A DNA stretch of 64,000 nt from Myxococcota bacterium (GTDB lineage: Bacteria; Myxococcota; B64-G9). The stretch covers positions 310,001 through 374,000 of the forward strand of contig JAKLGA010000004.1 in NCBI GenBank assembly GCA_022710975.1, read 5' to 3'. A program made the translations under genes and the position numbers. Positions 36,619 to 45,244 of this stretch are shown here, piece by piece (within the stretch, counting starts at the first letter, position 1; each line of letters begins with the position of its first letter). Under the pieces are notes generated by a model. That model searched no databases. It worked only from the letters and a program-made list of their open reading frames with translations, and was not told where the DNA came from.

Positions 36619-38190
36619 TCAGACCACCAGGGTGAAGGTGGTGCCGCCCGGGCCGGTCTCCACGTCGACCTCTCCGCCCCGGGTCTCGGCCACCGCCCGC
36701 ACGATGGAGAGCCCCAACCCGGTGCCGCCGCGGTCGCGCTCGGTGGTGAAGAAGCGCTCGAACAGGCGCCGGCGGTTGGCCTCGCTGATGCCCGGCCCGT
36801 GGTCGCGCACGGCGAAGGCCAGCCGCGCCCCGCGCCGGGCGACGGAGAGCTCGACCGGCTGGCCGGCCCCGTGCCGCGCGGCGTTGTCCAGGAGGTTGCG
36901 CAGCGCCGACTCGAGGTGATCCGGGTTCATGCGGAGCGGGCCGGGAGCCGCCCCCGGCGCGAGCACCACCCGGCCGGAGTAGCCCTGCAGCAGCCGCGCC
37001 AGGAAGGGCTCGAGCGCGATGTCCTGGGCGGCCTCCGGGGCGGTCTGGATGCGGGCCAGCTCGAGCAGCCGGGCCACCAGGCGCTCCATGCGCTGGGCCG
37101 CGGCCAGGACGTTCCCGTGGAAGCGGGCGCGCTGCTCGGGGGGCATGTCCGGCTCGTCCCGGAGCAGCTCGGCCGCCCCGCGGATGGAGGCGATCGGGGT
37201 CTTCAGCTCGTGGCTCACGTTGGTCGCGAAGCCGGCGATGTAGTCGGCCCGCTCCGAGAGCTGGCGGGTCATGCTGGCGAGCGCGGTGCCCAGGCGGTGG
37301 AACTCGGCCGGCGCCAGGCGGCCCGGCTCGAGCGCCGGCCCGGGCTCGCCGCGGGCGATGGCCTGGGCCGCGGCGGTCAGCCGCCGGAGCGGCCGGGTGA
37401 ACAGGCCGGCCATGAGCAGGCTGAAGGCCGCGGTCAGCAGCGCGCTCAGCCCGAGCGCGAGGGCCACCGGCCGCCGCAGCAGCCAGGCCGCCTTCAGCGG
37501 ATCCAGGCTGGTGCGCGACGCCCACACCGCCCCCACCACCTGCCCGCCGGACACGATGGGCAGGGCCACGAACAGGCGCACCTCCCCGCGGGAGGAGATG
37601 CTGCCGAGCGCCGGCTTGGGCTCGTCGCTCAGCCGCGCGCGGGTCACCGAGGCGTAGCTCCCCGAGAGCGCCCGGCGGACCTCCGGCAGCCCGCCGAGCC
37701 TGGCCCCGCTCCACAGCCCGGAGGTGGCCACCGTGCAGCCCTGGGCGTCCACCACCCGGGCCGCGGTCAGGTTGAACGCCTTGGCCCGCTCCAGGATGGG
37801 CTGCAGCCGCCGGCCGGCCTGCCAGGCCGGGCCGTCCCCCTCGGGGCAGAACTCGGTCGGCGCCTCCACGGGCGGCAGGCGCGGCGCGCCGGCGTCGAGG
37901 CGGGGCTCGATCGGGTAGAAGCGCTCGTCGCTCGCGTCCAGGGGGCGGATGGAGGGCGCCTGTGCGGACGGGACGCCCTGGGCCTCCAGCCAGAACTCCC
38001 GCCAGGTCTCGGCCAGCACCACCGCCTCGCCGATCAGCTTGCTCTCGGTCTGGCGCACGAGCTGGCTCTCGAACAGCCGCAGGCCCAGGTAGGCCAGGCC
38101 CGGCACCACCAGCACCAGGGCGTTCAGGGCGAGCAGCAGCCAGGTGAGCGACAGGCCGCGGCGGGCCGGGTGCGGGGCCGGCGCGGTCAT
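36619..38190 (-). CDS. Sensor histidine kinase (CreC-like)
   Basis: This 523-residue two-helix sensor has a first membrane helix at about 15-40 and a periplasmic domain to about 245 (with VVDAQGCTVATSGLWSG and LFVALPIVSGGQVVGAVW, a CACHE-like fold). A second helix, a HAMP region, HisKA with VSHELKTPIASIRG, and HATPase with LDNAARHG, DHGPGI and GGTGLGL follow. The order and the TVATSGLWSG segment recall CreC. It autophosphorylates on the His of the H-box and should pass phosphate to the regulator encoded just upstream. ATG 38190 overlaps the stop codon of the regulator gene by 4 nt. Confidence 0.85.
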   Translation of the reverse strand: MTAPAPHPARRGLSLTWLLLALNALVLVVPGLAYLGLRLFESQLVRQTESKLIGEAVVLAETWREFWLEAQGVPSAQAPSIRPLDASDERFYPIEPRLDAGAPRLPPVEAPTEFCPEGDGPAWQAGRRLQPILERAKAFNLTAARVVDAQGCTVATSGLWSGARLGGLPEVRRALSGSYASVTRARLSDEPKPALGSISSRGEVRLFVALPIVSGGQVVGAVWASRTSLDPLKAAWLLRRPVALALGLSALLTAAFSLLMAGLFTRPLRRLTAAAQAIARGEPGPALEPGRLAPAEFHRLGTALASMTRQLSERADYIAGFATNVSHELKTPIASIRGAAELLRDEPDMPPEQRARFHGNVLAAAQRMERLVARLLELARIQTAPEAAQDIALEPFLARLLQGYSGRVVLAPGAAPGPLRMNPDHLESALRNLLDNAARHGAGQPVELSVARRGARLAFAVRDHGPGISEANRRRLFERFFTTERDRGGTGLGLSIVRAVAETRGGEVDVETGPGGTTFTLVV

Positions 38191-38897
38191 CGCTCGCCCG
38201 GCCCGGGCGCCGGCTGCCCGGGCTCGCGCAGCCGGTAGCCCACCCCGTGCACCGTCTCGATGGGGTCGGCGGCCCCGGCCTCGGCCAGCTTGCGGCGGAT
38301 GCGGCGCACGTGGGAGTCGATGGTGCGGTCGGTGATGGCGTGCCCCTGGCCGTAGGCCCGGTCCACCAGCTCGTCGCGGGTGAACACCTTGCCAGGCCGG
38401 CCGAGCAGCGCCTGCAGCAGCGCGAACTCCGTGGCGGTGAGCGCGACCTCGGTCCCGCTCCAGGTGCAGCGCCGCCGCTCGAGGTCCAGGCCGAGCGGCC
38501 CGCAGGCGAGCGCCGGGACCGGCCCGGCCGGGGCAGGCTGGGTCCGGCGCAGCACGGCCTTCACCCGGGCCACCACCTCGCGCGGGGAGAAGGGCTTGAC
38601 CACGTAGTCGTCCGCCCCCAGCTCCAGCCCCAGAACCCGGTCCAGCTCGTCGGTGCGGCTGGTGAGGAACACGATGGGCAGTCGGCCCCTGGCCCGCAGC
38701 GCCCGGCACACCTCCAGCCCGTCCGCCTCGGGCATGAGGATGTCGAGCAGGGCGAGCTCCACGGGCTGCTCGGCGCACAGGCGCAGCGCCTGGGCCCCGT
38801 CGGCCGCCTCGAGCACGCGGTGGCCGGCCCGCTCCAGGGCGTAGCGCAGCACCTCGCGGATGTGCCCGTCGTCGTCCGCCACCAGGATGGTCGCCAA
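38187..38897 (-). CDS. OmpR/CreB-family response regulator
   Basis: This protein has 236 residues: a receiver domain with LVADDDGHIREVL, the phospho-acceptor Asp in LLDILMPEADG and the Lys in YVVKPFSPRE, then a winged-helix DNA-binding domain ending DRTIDSHVRRIRRKL and TVHGVGYRL. The TTG at 38897 is taken as the start. It has GGAGG 9 nt upstream and begins directly before the first strand, while an upstream ATG at 38936 falls inside the spacer of the predicted promoter. It forms one operon with two kinases and the YkgJ-type gene. Confidence 0.85.
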   Translation of the reverse strand: MATILVADDDGHIREVLRYALERAGHRVLEAADGAQALRLCAEQPVELALLDILMPEADGLEVCRALRARGRLPIVFLTSRTDELDRVLGLELGADDYVVKPFSPREVVARVKAVLRRTQPAPAGPVPALACGPLGLDLERRRCTWSGTEVALTATEFALLQALLGRPGKVFTRDELVDRAYGQGHAITDRTIDSHVRRIRRKLAEAGAADPIETVHGVGYRLREPGQPAPGPGER

Positions 38898-38926
38898 GGC
38901 CGCTTCCCTCCAGGGGTTCTGCCGGC

Positions 38927-38955
38927 ATCCCACCATCGGCTCCGGCCCGAGTCAA
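38927..38955 (-). promoter_or_regulatory. Predicted promoter for the phosphorelay operon
   Basis: On the minus strand TTGACT (38955-38950), a 17-nt spacer and TGGGAT (38932-38927). It lies back-to-back with the acyl carrier protein promoter 28 bp away. Confidence 0.5.
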
Positions 38956-39073: not shown

Positions 39074-39373
39074 ATGACCGACCTCGAGATCGAACTGCGG
39101 GACAAGCTGATCGCGCGACTCGACCTCAAGGACGTGGACCCCTCCCAGATCACCAGCGCTTCCCGCCTGTTCGGCGAGGACCTGGGGCTCGACTCGATCG
39201 ACGCCCTGGAGCTCGAGGTGATGATCCAGGAGCACTGGGGCATCCAGATCAAGGCCTCCGAGCGCAACCGCTCCACGTTCGGCACCCTGGGCGACCTGGC
39301 CCGCTTCATCCAGGCCAACCTGGGCCGGGACTCCGCCCGGGAGGACGGGAGCCGGGTCCCCAAGGCGGGCTGA
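39074..39373 (+). CDS. Acyl carrier protein
   Basis: This 99-residue acidic helical protein has the phosphopantetheine site GEDLGLDSIDALELE, with Ser41 the expected attachment residue. The first 80 residues fit an ordinary ACP; the last 15 (GRDSAREDGSRVPKAG) are an unusual tail. No fatty acid or polyketide synthase gene is nearby. Instead a BtrH-like acyltransferase gene follows two genes later, which suggests this ACP carries a special acyl or aminoacyl group, as BtrI does in butirosin synthesis. That link is inference. The ATG has an AGGAAGGA region upstream, and the preceding in-frame sequence contains the promoter. Confidence 0.85.
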   Translation: MTDLEIELRDKLIARLDLKDVDPSQITSASRLFGEDLGLDSIDALELEVMIQEHWGIQIKASERNRSTFGTLGDLARFIQANLGRDSAREDGSRVPKAG

Positions 39374-39385
39374 GGGGCCCGGGCG

Positions 39386-39859
39386 ATGATCATCGGCAAG
39401 CACAGCGGCGCCCGGGCGCCCTCGGGGGAGCACCGGCTGACGGTGTTCGAGCCGGACGGCAGCGGTCGGCTGCAGGCCAGCGTGCAGCCGACCGAGTACC
39501 AGGATCTCATCGAGCAGTCCTACGCACAGCAGCGCGAGGCGGCCGGGCGGTTGCTCGGCCGGCTGCGGGCCGGGGAGCTGAGCCCGATCGGCTTCTACCT
39601 GGAGCTGCAGCGGCTGACCGTGGGCGAGCTGGCCACCCGGGCTCGGGTGAGCGCCTGGAAGGTGCGCGCCCACCTCGCGCCGAGGGGCTTCCTGCGCGCC
39701 CGGGTGGAGACCCTGCAACGCTACGCGCTGGTCTTCGACGTGGACGTGGCCGACTTCTTCCAGCTCCTGGAGCTGGCCGACGGGCTGGAGGCCCGGCTGG
39801 AGCCCCACGGCGAGCGCCTGCTCCAGCGCCTGCGGATCCAGCCGGGGCAGGGCGCATGA
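39386..39859 (+). CDS. Small protein with helix-turn-helix-like C-terminal half
   Basis: This protein has 157 residues. The first 60 are mixed, with no known motif. Residues about 75-130 (LTVGELATRARVSAWKVRAH and LQRYALVFDVDVADFFQLL) have the spacing of an XRE-type helix-turn-helix. It could be a regulator of the cassette or an adaptor for the carrier protein. It starts 12 nt after the ACP gene and its stop overlaps the next start codon (ATGA), so it belongs to the cassette. I do not recognise a family. Confidence 0.65.
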   Translation: MIIGKHSGARAPSGEHRLTVFEPDGSGRLQASVQPTEYQDLIEQSYAQQREAAGRLLGRLRAGELSPIGFYLELQRLTVGELATRARVSAWKVRAHLAPRGFLRARVETLQRYALVFDVDVADFFQLLELADGLEARLEPHGERLLQRLRIQPGQGA

Positions 39860-40941
39860 GCGGGCTCATCCCGGGCTACCGCCACGAGGCGGCCTCGCAC
39901 TGCGAGACCGGCAGCCTCCGCAACGCGCTGCGCTTCGCCGGGCTCGAGCTCAGCGAGCCGATGGTGTTCGGGCTGGGCTCCGGGCCGGCCTTCTACTACC
40001 TGTTCTTCGTCAAGGGCCCGGCCACCCTGCCCATGCTGGGCATCCGCAACCCCCCCGGCGGGGTGCTGCGCAACGTCACCCGGCGGCTGGGCATCGAGCT
40101 GCACGGGCGGGAGCACAAGAGCGGCGCCGAGGCCCTGGAGCGGGCGGACGCGCTGCTCGCCAGGAACGTCCCGGTGGCCGCGCTGGTGGACATGTTCTAC
40201 ATGCAGTACCTGCCGGCCTTCATGCGGGTGCACGCCCCGTTCCACTTCATCCTGCTGGTGGGCCGGGAGGGCGAGCACTACTGGGTGTCGGACCCCTACG
40301 CCGAGCAGCTCGAGCGGCTGCACCGGGACGATCTGCGCGCCGCCTGGCAGACGCACGCCCGGCTGTCGAAGGACAACTACCTGGCCCACGTGGGCGCGCT
40401 GCCCCCGGCGCTCGATCTGCGCCGGGCCAGCCGCGAGGCCATCCTGCGCACCTGCCGCGACGTGGTCCTGCCCCGGCCGGTCCGCCGGCTGGCCTTCTTC
40501 ATCGGGCCGCAGGGCATGCGCACCTTCGCCCACGCCATGCGCCGCTGGCCCGCGCGCCACCGCGGGGTCGCGCTGCGCGAGGGCATCCTGTTCCACGTGG
40601 TGATGTTCGAGGAGCAGGGCACCGGCGGCGGGGCCTTCCGCCTGATGTACGCCGCCTTCCTGCAGGAGCTGGCCGCGCGCTTCGGCGCCCGGCGCCTGGG
40701 CGAACTGGCGGTCGAGATGGGCGCGCACGGCCGCACCTGGCGCAACACCTCGCGCAAGTTCGCCGCGCTGGGCAAGAAGATCCCCATGGCGGACGAGGAC
40801 TACGAGGGCTGGGCCCGGGACCACCGGGCCGAGCTCGAGCAGGGGCTCCGGGAGCTGGCGGACGACTTCCTGCGCCTGGCCGACTTCGAGGAGCGTTTCT
40901 TCCCCGAGCTCCGCGCCGCGGCCGCGGCCGAGCTCCGCTGA
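39856..40941 (+). CDS. BtrH/DUF4872-type acyltransferase
   Basis: This 361-residue soluble protein matches BtrH_N plus DUF4872. The N-terminal domain has a papain/C39-like layout: likely nucleophile Cys16 in ASHCETGSL, His126 or His130 in VHAPFHFILLVG, and Asp146 in YWVSDPYAE. In butirosin synthesis BtrH moves a gamma-glutamyl-AHBA group from the carrier BtrI to ribostamycin, so the family is known as an ACP-dependent acyltransferase. The C-terminal half (DUF4872) is helical and of unknown role. The ACP gene two positions upstream gives a likely partner; donor group and acceptor are unknown. The start ATG overlaps the previous stop. Confidence 0.8.
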   Translation: MSGLIPGYRHEAASHCETGSLRNALRFAGLELSEPMVFGLGSGPAFYYLFFVKGPATLPMLGIRNPPGGVLRNVTRRLGIELHGREHKSGAEALERADALLARNVPVAALVDMFYMQYLPAFMRVHAPFHFILLVGREGEHYWVSDPYAEQLERLHRDDLRAAWQTHARLSKDNYLAHVGALPPALDLRRASREAILRTCRDVVLPRPVRRLAFFIGPQGMRTFAHAMRRWPARHRGVALREGILFHVVMFEEQGTGGGAFRLMYAAFLQELAARFGARRLGELAVEMGAHGRTWRNTSRKFAALGKKIPMADEDYEGWARDHRAELEQGLRELADDFLRLADFEERFFPELRAAAAAELR

Positions 40942-40967
40942 GCCCCCGGGCGGGGCGGGTGGGACCC

Positions 40968-42797
40968 ATGGCGGATCCGGCGGAATTCTGGCGCGCCTGG
41001 GCGCCGTACTGGGGAGAGATGGAGGACCGCCACTTCGGGCGGGCCGCGGCCGAGCGCATCTCCGCTGGCCTGCAGCCCCCCGTGCTGGTGGTCGGGGCCG
41101 GGCAGGGCATCATCGTCGAGCACCTCCGGCGGAAGGGCCTGGAGACCTTCGGGCTCGACCTCGATCCCGAGATGGTGCGCGAGGCCCGCGAGCGCCGCGG
41201 GCTGGAGCTCGTGCTGGGGGACGCCCGCGCGCTGCCCTTCCCGCGCAACCGCTTCGGCGCGGTCATCCTGTCCTCGGGGGTGCTGGACTACCTGGAGGAC
41301 GAGGAGCTCGCGCGCCAGATCCTGGCCGAGGCGTTGCGGGTGCTCGTGCCCTACGGCGATCTGTGGGCCGCCTTCTACCAGCTCCCGCCCACGGTGGCCC
41401 GGGTGAACCGCCGGCTGGGCATCCTGGAGCCGCGCCGCTACCACCTGGGGCGGCTGTTCAAGCTGCTGCGCACCGTGCGGCAGGACCCGCTGGCCTGCGT
41501 CCCAGAGATCGCCCGCTGGAGCGGCCGCGGCCGGCTGTCCTGCGGCGTCTACTTCACCTGGCTCGGGCTCTTCCTGCCGCGCGAGCTCAAGGCCGACTCG
41601 CGGCTCATCGAGCGCATCCTCGAGTCCGCCCGGGCCCGCGGCGTGGACCCCGCGCGTCTGTGGGACGCGACCCCCGACAGCCTGCCCTACCGGGACGAGG
41701 CCACGGTGCAGTCCCTGTTCGCCTCCCTGGGGCTGGCCCAGACGGAGCTGGTGCGCCTGCCCGACTGCCTGGTGGTGCGCCACCACAAGACCAGCCTGGC
41801 CAGGCTCGCGCCGGCCGGCCCGGGCGGGGGCGCAGCCGCCGGGGAGTGGGCCGTGCGCACGCGCGCGCTCAGCAAGCGCTACCCCGGAGCCGCGCGGCCT
41901 GCCATCGAGGGGCTGCACCTCACTGTCCCGCGCGGCGCGGTGTTCGGCATCCTCGGCCCCAACGGGGCCGGCAAGACCACCACGCTGATGATGCTCTCGG
42001 GCCTGCTCTCCCCGGACGCGGGCGAGATCGCCTTCGCCCCGGACATCGCTCGCGGCAGCCTGCGCCGGCGCATCGGCTACGTGCCGCAGGAGCTGGCCCT
42101 GTACCCGCGCCTGACGGCCGCCGAGAACCTGCGCTTCTTCGGCCGGCTGTACGGGCTGGGCGGGCGGAGGCTCGGGGAGCGGGTGGCGGCGCTCCTGGCC
42201 ATGGTGGGCCTCGGCGCCCGCGCGGGGGATCTGGTCAAGGACTTCTCGACCGGCATGATGCGGCGGCTCAACCTGGCGGCCGGCCTGCTGCACGCGCCCG
42301 ACATCCTGCTGCTGGACGAGCCCACCGTGGGCATCGACCCCCAGTCGCGCAACCTCATCTTCGAGGCCCTGGCCGAGCTGCGGCGGCAGCGGGTCACGGT
42401 GCTGTACACCACCCATTACATGGAGGAGGCCAGCCGGCTGTGCGACCGGATCGCCATCCTGGACCGGGGCCGGCTCATCCTCGAGGGGCACCCCCGCGAG
42501 CTGCTCACCCAGCACGGGCTCCGGCGGCTGGAGCTCGGCGGCCCCCCGGCCGCGCTCGAGGCGGCCCGGGCGGCGGCCGTCGCCCTGGAGGAGGTCTTCT
42601 GGGCGGGCACGGTCGAGGGCGGTCTCAAGGTGCTGGCCCCGGCCACCGGCGACGGCCCGGCGCTGCTCGAGAGGCTGCAGGCGGCGGCCGGCGCGGCCGG
42701 GGCCGCGCTCTGCCTGCGCTCGGCCGCGGAGCCCGATCTGGAGAGCCTGTTCCTCGATCTGACCGGGCGCTCGCTCCGGGACGGGGCGGAGGGCTGA
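40968..42797 (+). CDS. Methyltransferase fused to ABC transporter ATPase
   Basis: This 609-residue protein joins two parts. Residues 1-270 form a class I SAM methyltransferase: motif I VLVVGAGQG (39-47), an acidic loop in FGLDLDPEMV and SSGVLDYLEDEEL. Residues about 290-609 are an ABC-2-type export ATPase: Walker A GPNGAGKT (about 330), signature FSTGMMRRL (about 425, replacing LSGGQ), Walker B ILLLDEPTVG (about 446) and a switch His in YTTHYMEE. A short Gly/Ala linker (PAGPGGGAAAG) joins them. Such a fusion is unusual and suggests modification linked to export. ATG 40968 is chosen; GTG 40959 is an alternative. The permease gene follows 4 nt later. Confidence 0.85.
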   Translation: MADPAEFWRAWAPYWGEMEDRHFGRAAAERISAGLQPPVLVVGAGQGIIVEHLRRKGLETFGLDLDPEMVREARERRGLELVLGDARALPFPRNRFGAVILSSGVLDYLEDEELARQILAEALRVLVPYGDLWAAFYQLPPTVARVNRRLGILEPRRYHLGRLFKLLRTVRQDPLACVPEIARWSGRGRLSCGVYFTWLGLFLPRELKADSRLIERILESARARGVDPARLWDATPDSLPYRDEATVQSLFASLGLAQTELVRLPDCLVVRHHKTSLARLAPAGPGGGAAAGEWAVRTRALSKRYPGAARPAIEGLHLTVPRGAVFGILGPNGAGKTTTLMMLSGLLSPDAGEIAFAPDIARGSLRRRIGYVPQELALYPRLTAAENLRFFGRLYGLGGRRLGERVAALLAMVGLGARAGDLVKDFSTGMMRRLNLAAGLLHAPDILLLDEPTVGIDPQSRNLIFEALAELRRQRVTVLYTTHYMEEASRLCDRIAILDRGRLILEGHPRELLTQHGLRRLELGGPPAALEAARAAAVALEEVFWAGTVEGGLKVLAPATGDGPALLERLQAAAGAAGAALCLRSAAEPDLESLFLDLTGRSLRDGAEG

Positions 42798-42801
42798 GCC
42801 C

Positions 42802-44013
42802 GTGCGCCTCCTGGCCATCGCCGGCAAGGAGCTCCGGCTCCTGCTCCGCGACCCGGGCGGGCTCGTCTTCCTGTTCGTCCTGCCGGCCGTGTTCATCGTG
42901 GTGCTCAGCTTCGCGCTGCAGGGGGCCTTCACCTCGGGCCCGGCCCAGGAGCGCTTCGACGTGCTGGTGGTGGACGAGGAGGGGCTGGAGCTGGGCGCGG
43001 CCCTGGCCGAGGGGCTGGACGCCTCGGGCCGCTTCCGCGCGCTCGCCTCCCTCGACGGCCAGCCGCTCGACCGGGCCGGGGCGCTGCGGGCGCTGCGGGC
43101 CGGGCGCCACCAGGTGGCGGTCGTCGTCCCGGCCGGGAGCACCCGGGCTGCCGGCCTGCGCGCCGACGAGAACCTCGAGGTGCTGGTCGATCCGGCCCTG
43201 TCCGGGGAGTTCGCCAGCGCGGTCACCCAGCTCGTGCAGGCGGTGGTGCTGCGCTTCGAGCTCGAGGGGCTGCAGCGGGTGGTCAACGCCTCGGAGCTGG
43301 CCGACTTCGCCTTCGAGGGGCACGTGGGCGACCGCTGCCTCCAGGTCCGCCAGGTGTACACCGGCCGGCCAGGCGCCGAGCTGCGGCCGAACTCGGTCCA
43401 GCAGACCGTGCCCGGCTGGACCATCTTCGCCCTGTTCTGGATCTCCCAGATCCTGGCCATCAACCTGATCCAGGAGCGCCTGAGCGGGGCCTACCGGCGC
43501 ATCCTGGTCTCGCCGATCTCCTTCGCCGGCTACCTGACCGGCAAGATGCTGCCCTTCTTCGCCATCAACCTGCTGCAGGCGGCGCTCATGTTCGCCATCG
43601 GGGTGTGGGGGCTGCCCTGGCTGGGCGCGCCGGCGCTCGAGCTGCGCGAGCCGTGGGCGCTCGTGGCCATGACGGGGGCCATCTCGGTGGCCGCCCTGGG
43701 CTTCGGCCTGGTCATGGCGGCGCTGTCGAGGACGGTCTTCCTGGTGGCCTCGCTGTCCGCCTCGGTGCTGATCATCATGGCCATCCTGGGCGGCATCATG
43801 GTGCCCAAGTTCGTCATGCCCGAGGCCATGCAGCGCCTGTCGCTGGTCGTGCCGCACGGCTGGGCGCTGGACGGCTACCTGGACATCCTGGTGCGGGGGG
43901 CGGATCTGCGCCACGTGGCGCCGTCCATCGCGGCCGTGCTGGCCTTCGGCCTCGCCTTCCACCTGTTCGCCTGGGCCCGCCTGTCCCGGCAGAGCCCGCG
44001 GCCGCCGCGCTGA
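42802..44013 (+). CDS. ABC-2 type transporter permease
   Basis: This 403-residue membrane protein belongs to the ABC-2 export family. The first helix (GLVFLFVLPAVFIVVLSFAL) is followed by a large extracytoplasmic domain of about 180 residues. Five more helices then fill residues 210-390, including WTIFALFWISQILAINLI and the conserved family region around YRRILVSPISFAGYLTGKM. It should pair with the fused ATPase to move a lipid or small molecule out of the cytoplasm. The GTG start at 42802 lies 4 nt after the previous stop codon. The gene ends just before an AT-rich stretch. Confidence 0.85.
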   Translation: MRLLAIAGKELRLLLRDPGGLVFLFVLPAVFIVVLSFALQGAFTSGPAQERFDVLVVDEEGLELGAALAEGLDASGRFRALASLDGQPLDRAGALRALRAGRHQVAVVVPAGSTRAAGLRADENLEVLVDPALSGEFASAVTQLVQAVVLRFELEGLQRVVNASELADFAFEGHVGDRCLQVRQVYTGRPGAELRPNSVQQTVPGWTIFALFWISQILAINLIQERLSGAYRRILVSPISFAGYLTGKMLPFFAINLLQAALMFAIGVWGLPWLGAPALELREPWALVAMTGAISVAALGFGLVMAALSRTVFLVASLSASVLIIMAILGGIMVPKFVMPEAMQRLSLVVPHGWALDGYLDILVRGADLRHVAPSIAAVLAFGLAFHLFAWARLSRQSPRPPR

Positions 44014-44090: not shown

Positions 44091-44104
44091 AATTGCGAGG
44101 AATA

Positions 44105-45244
44105 ATGGAAATCACTGTTCCAAGACGGATGAAGGACCCCGGCCAGAGCTTCTTCCTCTTCGGGCCCCGTGGAACAGGCAAGTCGACATGGATGAAGGAG
44201 AATCTGAGAGGGTCCCTGTGGATCGATCTCCTTTTGCCCGAGACCTTCAGGAGCCTCAGCGCCCGCCCCGAGAGGCTGCGAGAGCTTGTCGCCGGGCGGA
44301 CCGGCCCGCTCGTGGTGGTGATCGATGAGGTGCAGCGGGTGCCGCAGCTCCTGCCCCAGGTCCACGCGCTGCTCGAGGAGGACAGGCGACTGCGCTTCGT
44401 GCTCACGGGTTCGAGCGCCCGCAAGCTCCGGCGGACCGGTGTGGACCTGCTCGGTGGCCGGGCGCTGCTGCGCTCCCTGCATCCCTTCCTGGCGTGCGAG
44501 CTGGGAGCCTCGTTCGACCTCGGCCGCGCGCTGGAGATCGGGTTGGTGCCGCTGGTCACCCAGTCGGCCGCGCCCGCGGACACGCTCGCGGCTTACGCGT
44601 CCCTCTACGTCCAGGAGGAGGTCCAGGCGGAGGGCCTGACCCGCAACGTCGGTGCCTTCCACCGCTTCCTCGAGGCGGTCAGCCTGTCGCACGCCGGCCT
44701 GCTGAATGTCAGCAGCGTGGCGCGAGATTGCGAGGTGAACCGCAAGGTGGTCGAGAGCTACCTCGAGATCCTCGAGGATCTGCTGCTGTGCTTCAGCCTG
44801 CCTGTGTTTGCGAGGCGGCCGGGCCGGGCCACCGTGGCCAGGCGGAAGTTCTTCCTCTTCGATGCCGGTCTGTTCCGCGCGCTCAGGCCGAGAGGCATGC
44901 TCGAGGCAGGCATGGATCTCGCCGGACCTGCGCTGGAAGGAATCGTGGCGCAGCACCTGCGGGCGGTGTCCGCCTACCGAAACGATGACTCGCAGCTCTC
45001 CTTCTGGCGGACGCGCGGCGGCGTCGAGGTCGATCTCGTCTGGTACGGCCCGCGCGTGTTCCAGGCCATCGAGGTCAAGAACGCCTCGCGCGTGCGGCCC
45101 GAGGATCTGCGCGGGTTGAGGGCCTTCCATGGCGAGTACCCCGAGGCCGAGCTGCTGCTGCTCTACCGGGGCACGGAGCGCCTGCGCCTGGGCGAGGTCC
45201 AGTGCCTGCCTTGCGAGGAGTACCTGCGCGAGCTCGTGCCCTGA
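44105..45244 (+). CDS. AAA_14/DUF4143 ATPase
   Basis: This 379-residue protein has an N-terminal AAA_14 ATPase domain: Walker A GPRGTGKST (20-28), Walker B VVVIDEVQ (about 76-83) and LTGSSARKL (about 101-109). The C-terminal DUF4143 part ends in a PD-(D/E)xK-like core, VEVDLVWYGPRVFQAIEVK, resembling nuclease folds. Members are widespread, often next to mobile genes or defence loci; their function is unknown. Start ATG 44105 has GAGG 4 nt before it. The gene has its own AT-rich promoter and palindrome and looks like an independent insertion behind the ABC cassette. Confidence 0.8.
   Translation: MEITVPRRMKDPGQSFFLFGPRGTGKSTWMKENLRGSLWIDLLLPETFRSLSARPERLRELVAGRTGPLVVVIDEVQRVPQLLPQVHALLEEDRRLRFVLTGSSARKLRRTGVDLLGGRALLRSLHPFLACELGASFDLGRALEIGLVPLVTQSAAPADTLAAYASLYVQEEVQAEGLTRNVGAFHRFLEAVSLSHAGLLNVSSVARDCEVNRKVVESYLEILEDLLLCFSLPVFARRPGRATVARRKFFLFDAGLFRALRPRGMLEAGMDLAGPALEGIVAQHLRAVSAYRNDDSQLSFWRTRGGVEVDLVWYGPRVFQAIEVKNASRVRPEDLRGLRAFHGEYPEAELLLLYRGTERLRLGEVQCLPCEEYLRELVP

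Follow-up and report, generated by a model that had tools for sequence, protein, structure and literature searches.

A DarG-DarH-ABC-permease cassette resembling the flexirubin/dialkylresorcinol module, found apart from darA and darB in a Myxococcota genome

What might be done by a cassette that encodes an acyl carrier protein (ACP), a BtrH-type acyltransferase, a methyltransferase-ATPase fusion and an ABC permease, and from where would its acyl group come? Such a cassette lies in a 64-kb stretch of a Myxococcota genome (the window; coordinates without a locus name are positions in it). It occupies positions 39074-44013 and consists of five tightly packed genes on the + strand, arranged as follows: The ACP gene (39074..39373, 99 aa) is separated by 12 nt from the gene for a DarG-family-like protein (39386..39859, 157 aa), which overlaps the gene for a DarH/BtrH-type cysteine acyltransferase (39856..40941, 361 aa) by 4 nt (ATGA); a gap of 26 nt (ATG start at 40968) or 17 nt (GTG start at 40959) leads to a single open frame of 609 aa that joins a class I SAM-dependent methyltransferase (40968..41822) to a DrrA-like ABC-2 exporter ATPase (41850..42797), and 4 nt further on is the gene for an ABC-2 type permease (42802..44013, 403 aa). 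All five open ORFs have coding-type codon use and strong coding scores, and since none of the proteins is without a domain or family match (1e-6 to 1e-62) nothing suggests that the set arose by chance. ORFs, codon use and HMM domains confirm the five adjacent genes as described in the original prediction, and its statement that no ketosynthase, adenylation enzyme or aminotransferase is present also holds, none being recognised beside the cassette by HMM domain and ORF analysis. No Rfam match was found within the 64-kb window, and no sigma-70-like promoter was found upstream of the ACP gene by a search that says little in a GC-rich genome.

A two-component pair (36619-38936, minus strand) is divergent from the cassette; its orthologs in a relative (G007, L169:186-2481) are 60-71% identical and adjoin an unrelated gene, so the pairing with the cassette is particular to this genome and we rejected the two proteins as conserved cassette regulators. 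Directly after the cassette is a gene for an AAA_14/DUF4143 ATPase (44093-45244), probably unrelated, and the gap between them contains promoter-like and terminator-like sites.

The acyltransferase matches BtrH_N (PF14399, 6.8e-34, 117 bits against a cut-off of 29.7) and DUF4872 (PF16169, 5.3e-27, 95 bits against a cut-off of 28), and its match to the DarH_acyl family NF053550 (E 1.5e-62) has 211.6 bits, which is under the curated cut-off of 300; we therefore call it DarH-like and do not file it as an equivalog. In a phylogenetic tree it is sister to the DarH proteins of dialkylresorcinol (DAR) clusters with support 98/94, apart from the other BtrH-like proteins of the phylum, and on a very long branch (2.15). 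The original prediction placed a catalytic cysteine at position 16 with His and Asp partners; the cysteine is indeed residue 16, and Cys16, His130 and Asp146 are invariant across 34 aligned sequences. The AF2 model (pLDDT 89, pTM 0.90) finds its best fold matches in AziU3 (1.4e-11), CtaG (2.1e-10) and CcbD (6.5e-9), and the residues altered in the CtaG variants C11A, H128A and D144N have nearly the spacing of C16, H130 and D146. CcbD, a Cys-His-Glu acyltransferase that depends on a carrier protein and works by a ping-pong mechanism, moves the carrier-bound acyl group to its cysteine and then to an amine (PMC12945683), and for CtaG a transfer of 4-hydroxybenzoate from one carrier to another has been proposed (PMC6772006). 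The window protein has its domain family in common with BtrH and its fold and Cys-His-acid residues in common with CcbD and CtaG, but the acceptors of these three enzymes differ (aminoglycoside, thiooctose and carrier-bound peptide, respectively), and its identity to the solved structures matched, among which there is no solved BtrH, is 12-19%.

Might this protein be a C39-like peptidase instead, and the ABC pair the exporter of a processed peptide? The C39-like peptidase 3erv and PCAT1 peptidase domains are among the fold matches, and a relative is named a BtrH-like peptidase in PMC3949708, but the C39-like match (5e-5) is far behind those to AziU3, CtaG and CcbD, and the carrier-dependent transferase folds score orders of magnitude better and span the whole protein. 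Moreover, the gene is accompanied by an ACP gene and by no evident precursor peptide, and the ABC genes are of the DrrA/ABC-2 type with no fused peptidase. We rejected the C39-peptidase identity on the fold ranking, and the peptide-export reading as a whole seems to us exceedingly improbable. A predicted role in acyl transfer from a carrier and export is well supported, with homology and modelled fold in agreement.

No assay of a DarH protein and no paper naming DUF4872 were found in the literature searched. The plasmids searched contained nothing closer to DarH than BtrH-like relatives with identities of about 27-32%; 44 Acinetobacter plasmid records carry a BtrH/DUF4872 gene about 27% identical to the window protein (e.g., NZ_CP040051.1:77557-78366). 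Clusters in two genomes (G142 and G156, loci L053-L056) contain three different BtrH/DUF4872-like genes, whose neighbours are ABC genes and genes resembling those for methyltransferases, AMP ligases, nitrilases and radical SAM proteins.

The small protein encoded upstream scores below the NF053536 cut-off (E 2.6e-12, 47 bits against 70) and is for that reason called DarG-like. Its AF2 model has a pLDDT of 76 overall and >90 in the core, and by Foldseek resembles lambda-repressor/XRE domains (SinR, TM 0.7-0.8 on the target, probability 1.00), with a best E of only 8.5e-3. The "small HTH-like protein" originally described is borne out to this extent: it models as an XRE-like helix-turn-helix protein at the fold level, whose partner may be DNA or DarH. 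Of the 80 related loci described below, 77 have a DarG gene in front of DarH.

In the fusion protein the methyltransferase half matches Methyltransf_25 (2.4e-15) and Methyltransf_11 (8e-15) and has the SAM motif VVGAGQG, and the ATPase half matches ABC_tran (3e-30) and TIGR01188 drrA (2.7e-70), with Walker A/B and signature intact. The permease matches ABC2_membrane_3 (1.3e-32). The ATPase half is 40-51% identical to the ABC ATPases that adjoin DarH in related loci, and the permease is 24-35% identical to the permeases that follow them; the pair resembles DrrAB-type exporters. The methyltransferase half has no match in any of the 80 DarH loci and no close match in the plasmids searched; a search of 195 genomes of the phylum at 1e-12 found no ortholog outside this genome. 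The methylation originally proposed is a step predicted from the domain alone; the fused methyltransferase is not a common feature of the family, being absent from 80/80 loci.

To what known system, then, does the cassette belong? A scan with the DarH alignment, limited to one genome per species, gave at least 585 confirmed relatives, the best 80 of which were compared; all of these 80 are from Bacteroidota except one from a Desulfuromonadales MAG. In 68 of the best 80 loci DarG, DarH, ABC ATPase and permease adjoin one another, and an ACP of the cassette's type is no more than 9.5 kb away (the other loci are without one or two members of this set), which upholds the original idea that the BtrH-like gene travels with ACP and ABC genes. 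Every one of the 80 has DarB close to DarH, and 77 also have DarA there; the other three are contigs of 12.7, 6.8 and 5.4 kb. These counts mark the comparison loci as DAR clusters. Genes 2-5 of the cassette match their darG-darH-ABC-permease block in order. The flexirubin cluster of Flavobacterium johnsoniae (L123), one of these 68 loci, has the four homologous genes in the same order and orientation and a PRK09184-type ACP nearby; the cassette is unlike it in having no darA or darB, the ACP as its first gene, a methyltransferase fused to the ATPase and no adjoining ketosynthases. The dar cluster of Azoarcus sp. BH72 likewise contains an ACP, a conserved small protein, a BtrH-like protein, an ABC ATPase and an ABC permease, but also darA, darB and a ketosynthase, and no fusion is described for its ATPase (PMC3949708). 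The Desulfuromonadales MAG (L120) has DarG-DarH-ABC-permease-ACP within 4 kb, with identities to the cassette of 51% (ABC), 37% (DarH) and 35% (permease), but with a ketosynthase upstream, DarB nearby on the other strand and an unfused ATPase.

We regard it as very likely that the cassette is related to the flexirubin/DAR acyl-transfer and export module. The five-gene set is not new in kind, as the DarG-DarH-ABC-permease block is already known from DAR clusters, so that of the "minimal acyl-transfer, methylation and export system" first suggested, acyl transfer and export stand on homology and fold, and a free-standing system of a new type does not. What is new here is a module uncoupled from DarA and DarB and provided with a methyltransferase-ATPase fusion. 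A search with a 17-sequence profile found no DarA in this genome; the same profile recovers the DarA proteins of two genomes of the phylum (G172 and G182, both of which contribute rows to it) at 1e-100 or better. The nearest relative of DarB, which scores 120 bits where the cut-off is 450, is at another locus on contig C1. The genome thus has the DarG-DarH-ABC-permease order of a flexirubin/DAR cluster but not its DarA and DarB, and DarH is absent from all eight genomes of the same family that were searched. Could the cassette be the remnant of a decayed DAR cluster from which DarA and DarB have gone, and now be without function? The absence of DarA and true DarB from the genome and the long DarH branch would agree with this, but the five open frames with their strong coding scores and tight spacing, and the intact triad and ABC motifs, argue against it, and we consider decay very unlikely.

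The ACP bears on the source of the acyl group. It matches PP-binding (1.9e-6) and, at 70.3 bits against a cut-off of 70, NF006617 (E 1.1e-19), and is of the PRK09184 (aryl-polyene/flexirubin) type; it is 35-45% identical to flexirubin polyene ACPs and 28-31% identical to those DarC-type ACPs that gave a match. Its own genome contains an aryl-polyene-like cluster on another contig (C23:110-149 kb; L016, L017), where an ammonia-lyase, a double ketosynthase, two further ketosynthases, two ACPs, a dehydratase, a reductase, a LolA2_flexi-like carrier, an AMP ligase and a deacetylase-methyltransferase fusion are encoded; it is the clustering of ketosynthases with a PRK09184-type ACP, a dehydratase, a reductase, a LolA-like carrier and an ammonia-lyase that makes it aryl-polyene-like, most of its family matches being below equivalog cut-offs. 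One part of the double ketosynthase (754 aa) is a PRK09185-like ketosynthase, and the other half is about equally long. The cassette ACP is 45% identical to ACP1 of this cluster; the two group in a small ACP tree, in which the grouping is unsupported (0.07). Because of this resemblance the acyl group plausibly comes from the C23 cluster, in keeping with the original suggestion that it is made elsewhere. In Azoarcus, too, the arc polyene genes and the dar genes (ACP, BtrH-like, ABC and permease) are at separate loci (PMC3949708).

A different supply can be imagined, in which the ACP would carry the acyl group of a fatty acid or small polyketide, the C1 locus being one conceivable source, and an acylated lipid or small molecule would be exported with no link to aryl polyenes. 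The C1 locus (L023:7739-14392) has a thioesterase-like gene, an ACP, a KS II, a DarB/StlD-family-like KS III and an acyltransferase-like (malonyl-transferase-like) gene; dehydrogenase-like and two enoyl-CoA hydratase-like genes are also present there, with radical SAM-like genes around. In addition, some relatives have a polyene-like synthase without the cassette: orthologs of the C23 double ketosynthase are found in five of the eight family relatives that lack DarH, so the aryl-polyene-like pathway does not need the cassette. Against this, the cassette ACP resembles C23 ACP1 and the flexirubin ACPs far more than it does the remaining ACPs of its genome that were compared, and the C1 ACP gives no match to it, and we consider a non-polyene acyl group rather unlikely.

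On balance we think it probable that the cassette is a DarG-DarH-ABC-permease module with its own polyene-type ACP, working in acyl transfer and export as follows: The ACP would be loaded with an acyl chain, most likely aryl-polyenoyl or similar, from the C23 synthase; DarH would take the chain onto Cys16 and pass it, by a ping-pong mechanism, to an acceptor hydroxyl or amine, presumably of something other than a resorcinol made by DarA and DarB; the fused methyltransferase might cap the product or its head group, the presumed site of methylation; and the DrrA-like ATPase and ABC-2 permease would together carry the product across the inner membrane, if export is indeed their role. DarG, as an XRE-like small protein, may regulate or assist DarH. 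Given the absence of the resorcinol genes and the presence of the methyltransferase-ATPase fusion, the acyl chain is probably attached to another partner and the product exported. That the module was freed from resorcinol synthesis and, by way of its fusion protein, serves to produce and export methylated acyl conjugates of a new class is a more tentative proposal, which we put forward as possible but doubtful.

These observations also bear on the flexirubins, in which the joining of aryl-polyene acid and resorcinol has been proposed to be due to the ligase-like FlxW (PMC3992019). Because DarH has an ABC exporter beside it in nearly every one of the 80 loci, and because of its triad and its modelled CcbD/CtaG fold, it is a testable candidate for the ester-forming step and a concrete alternative to FlxW. 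The locus described here, with a DarH-like protein and no DarA, would show whether DarH takes other acceptors.
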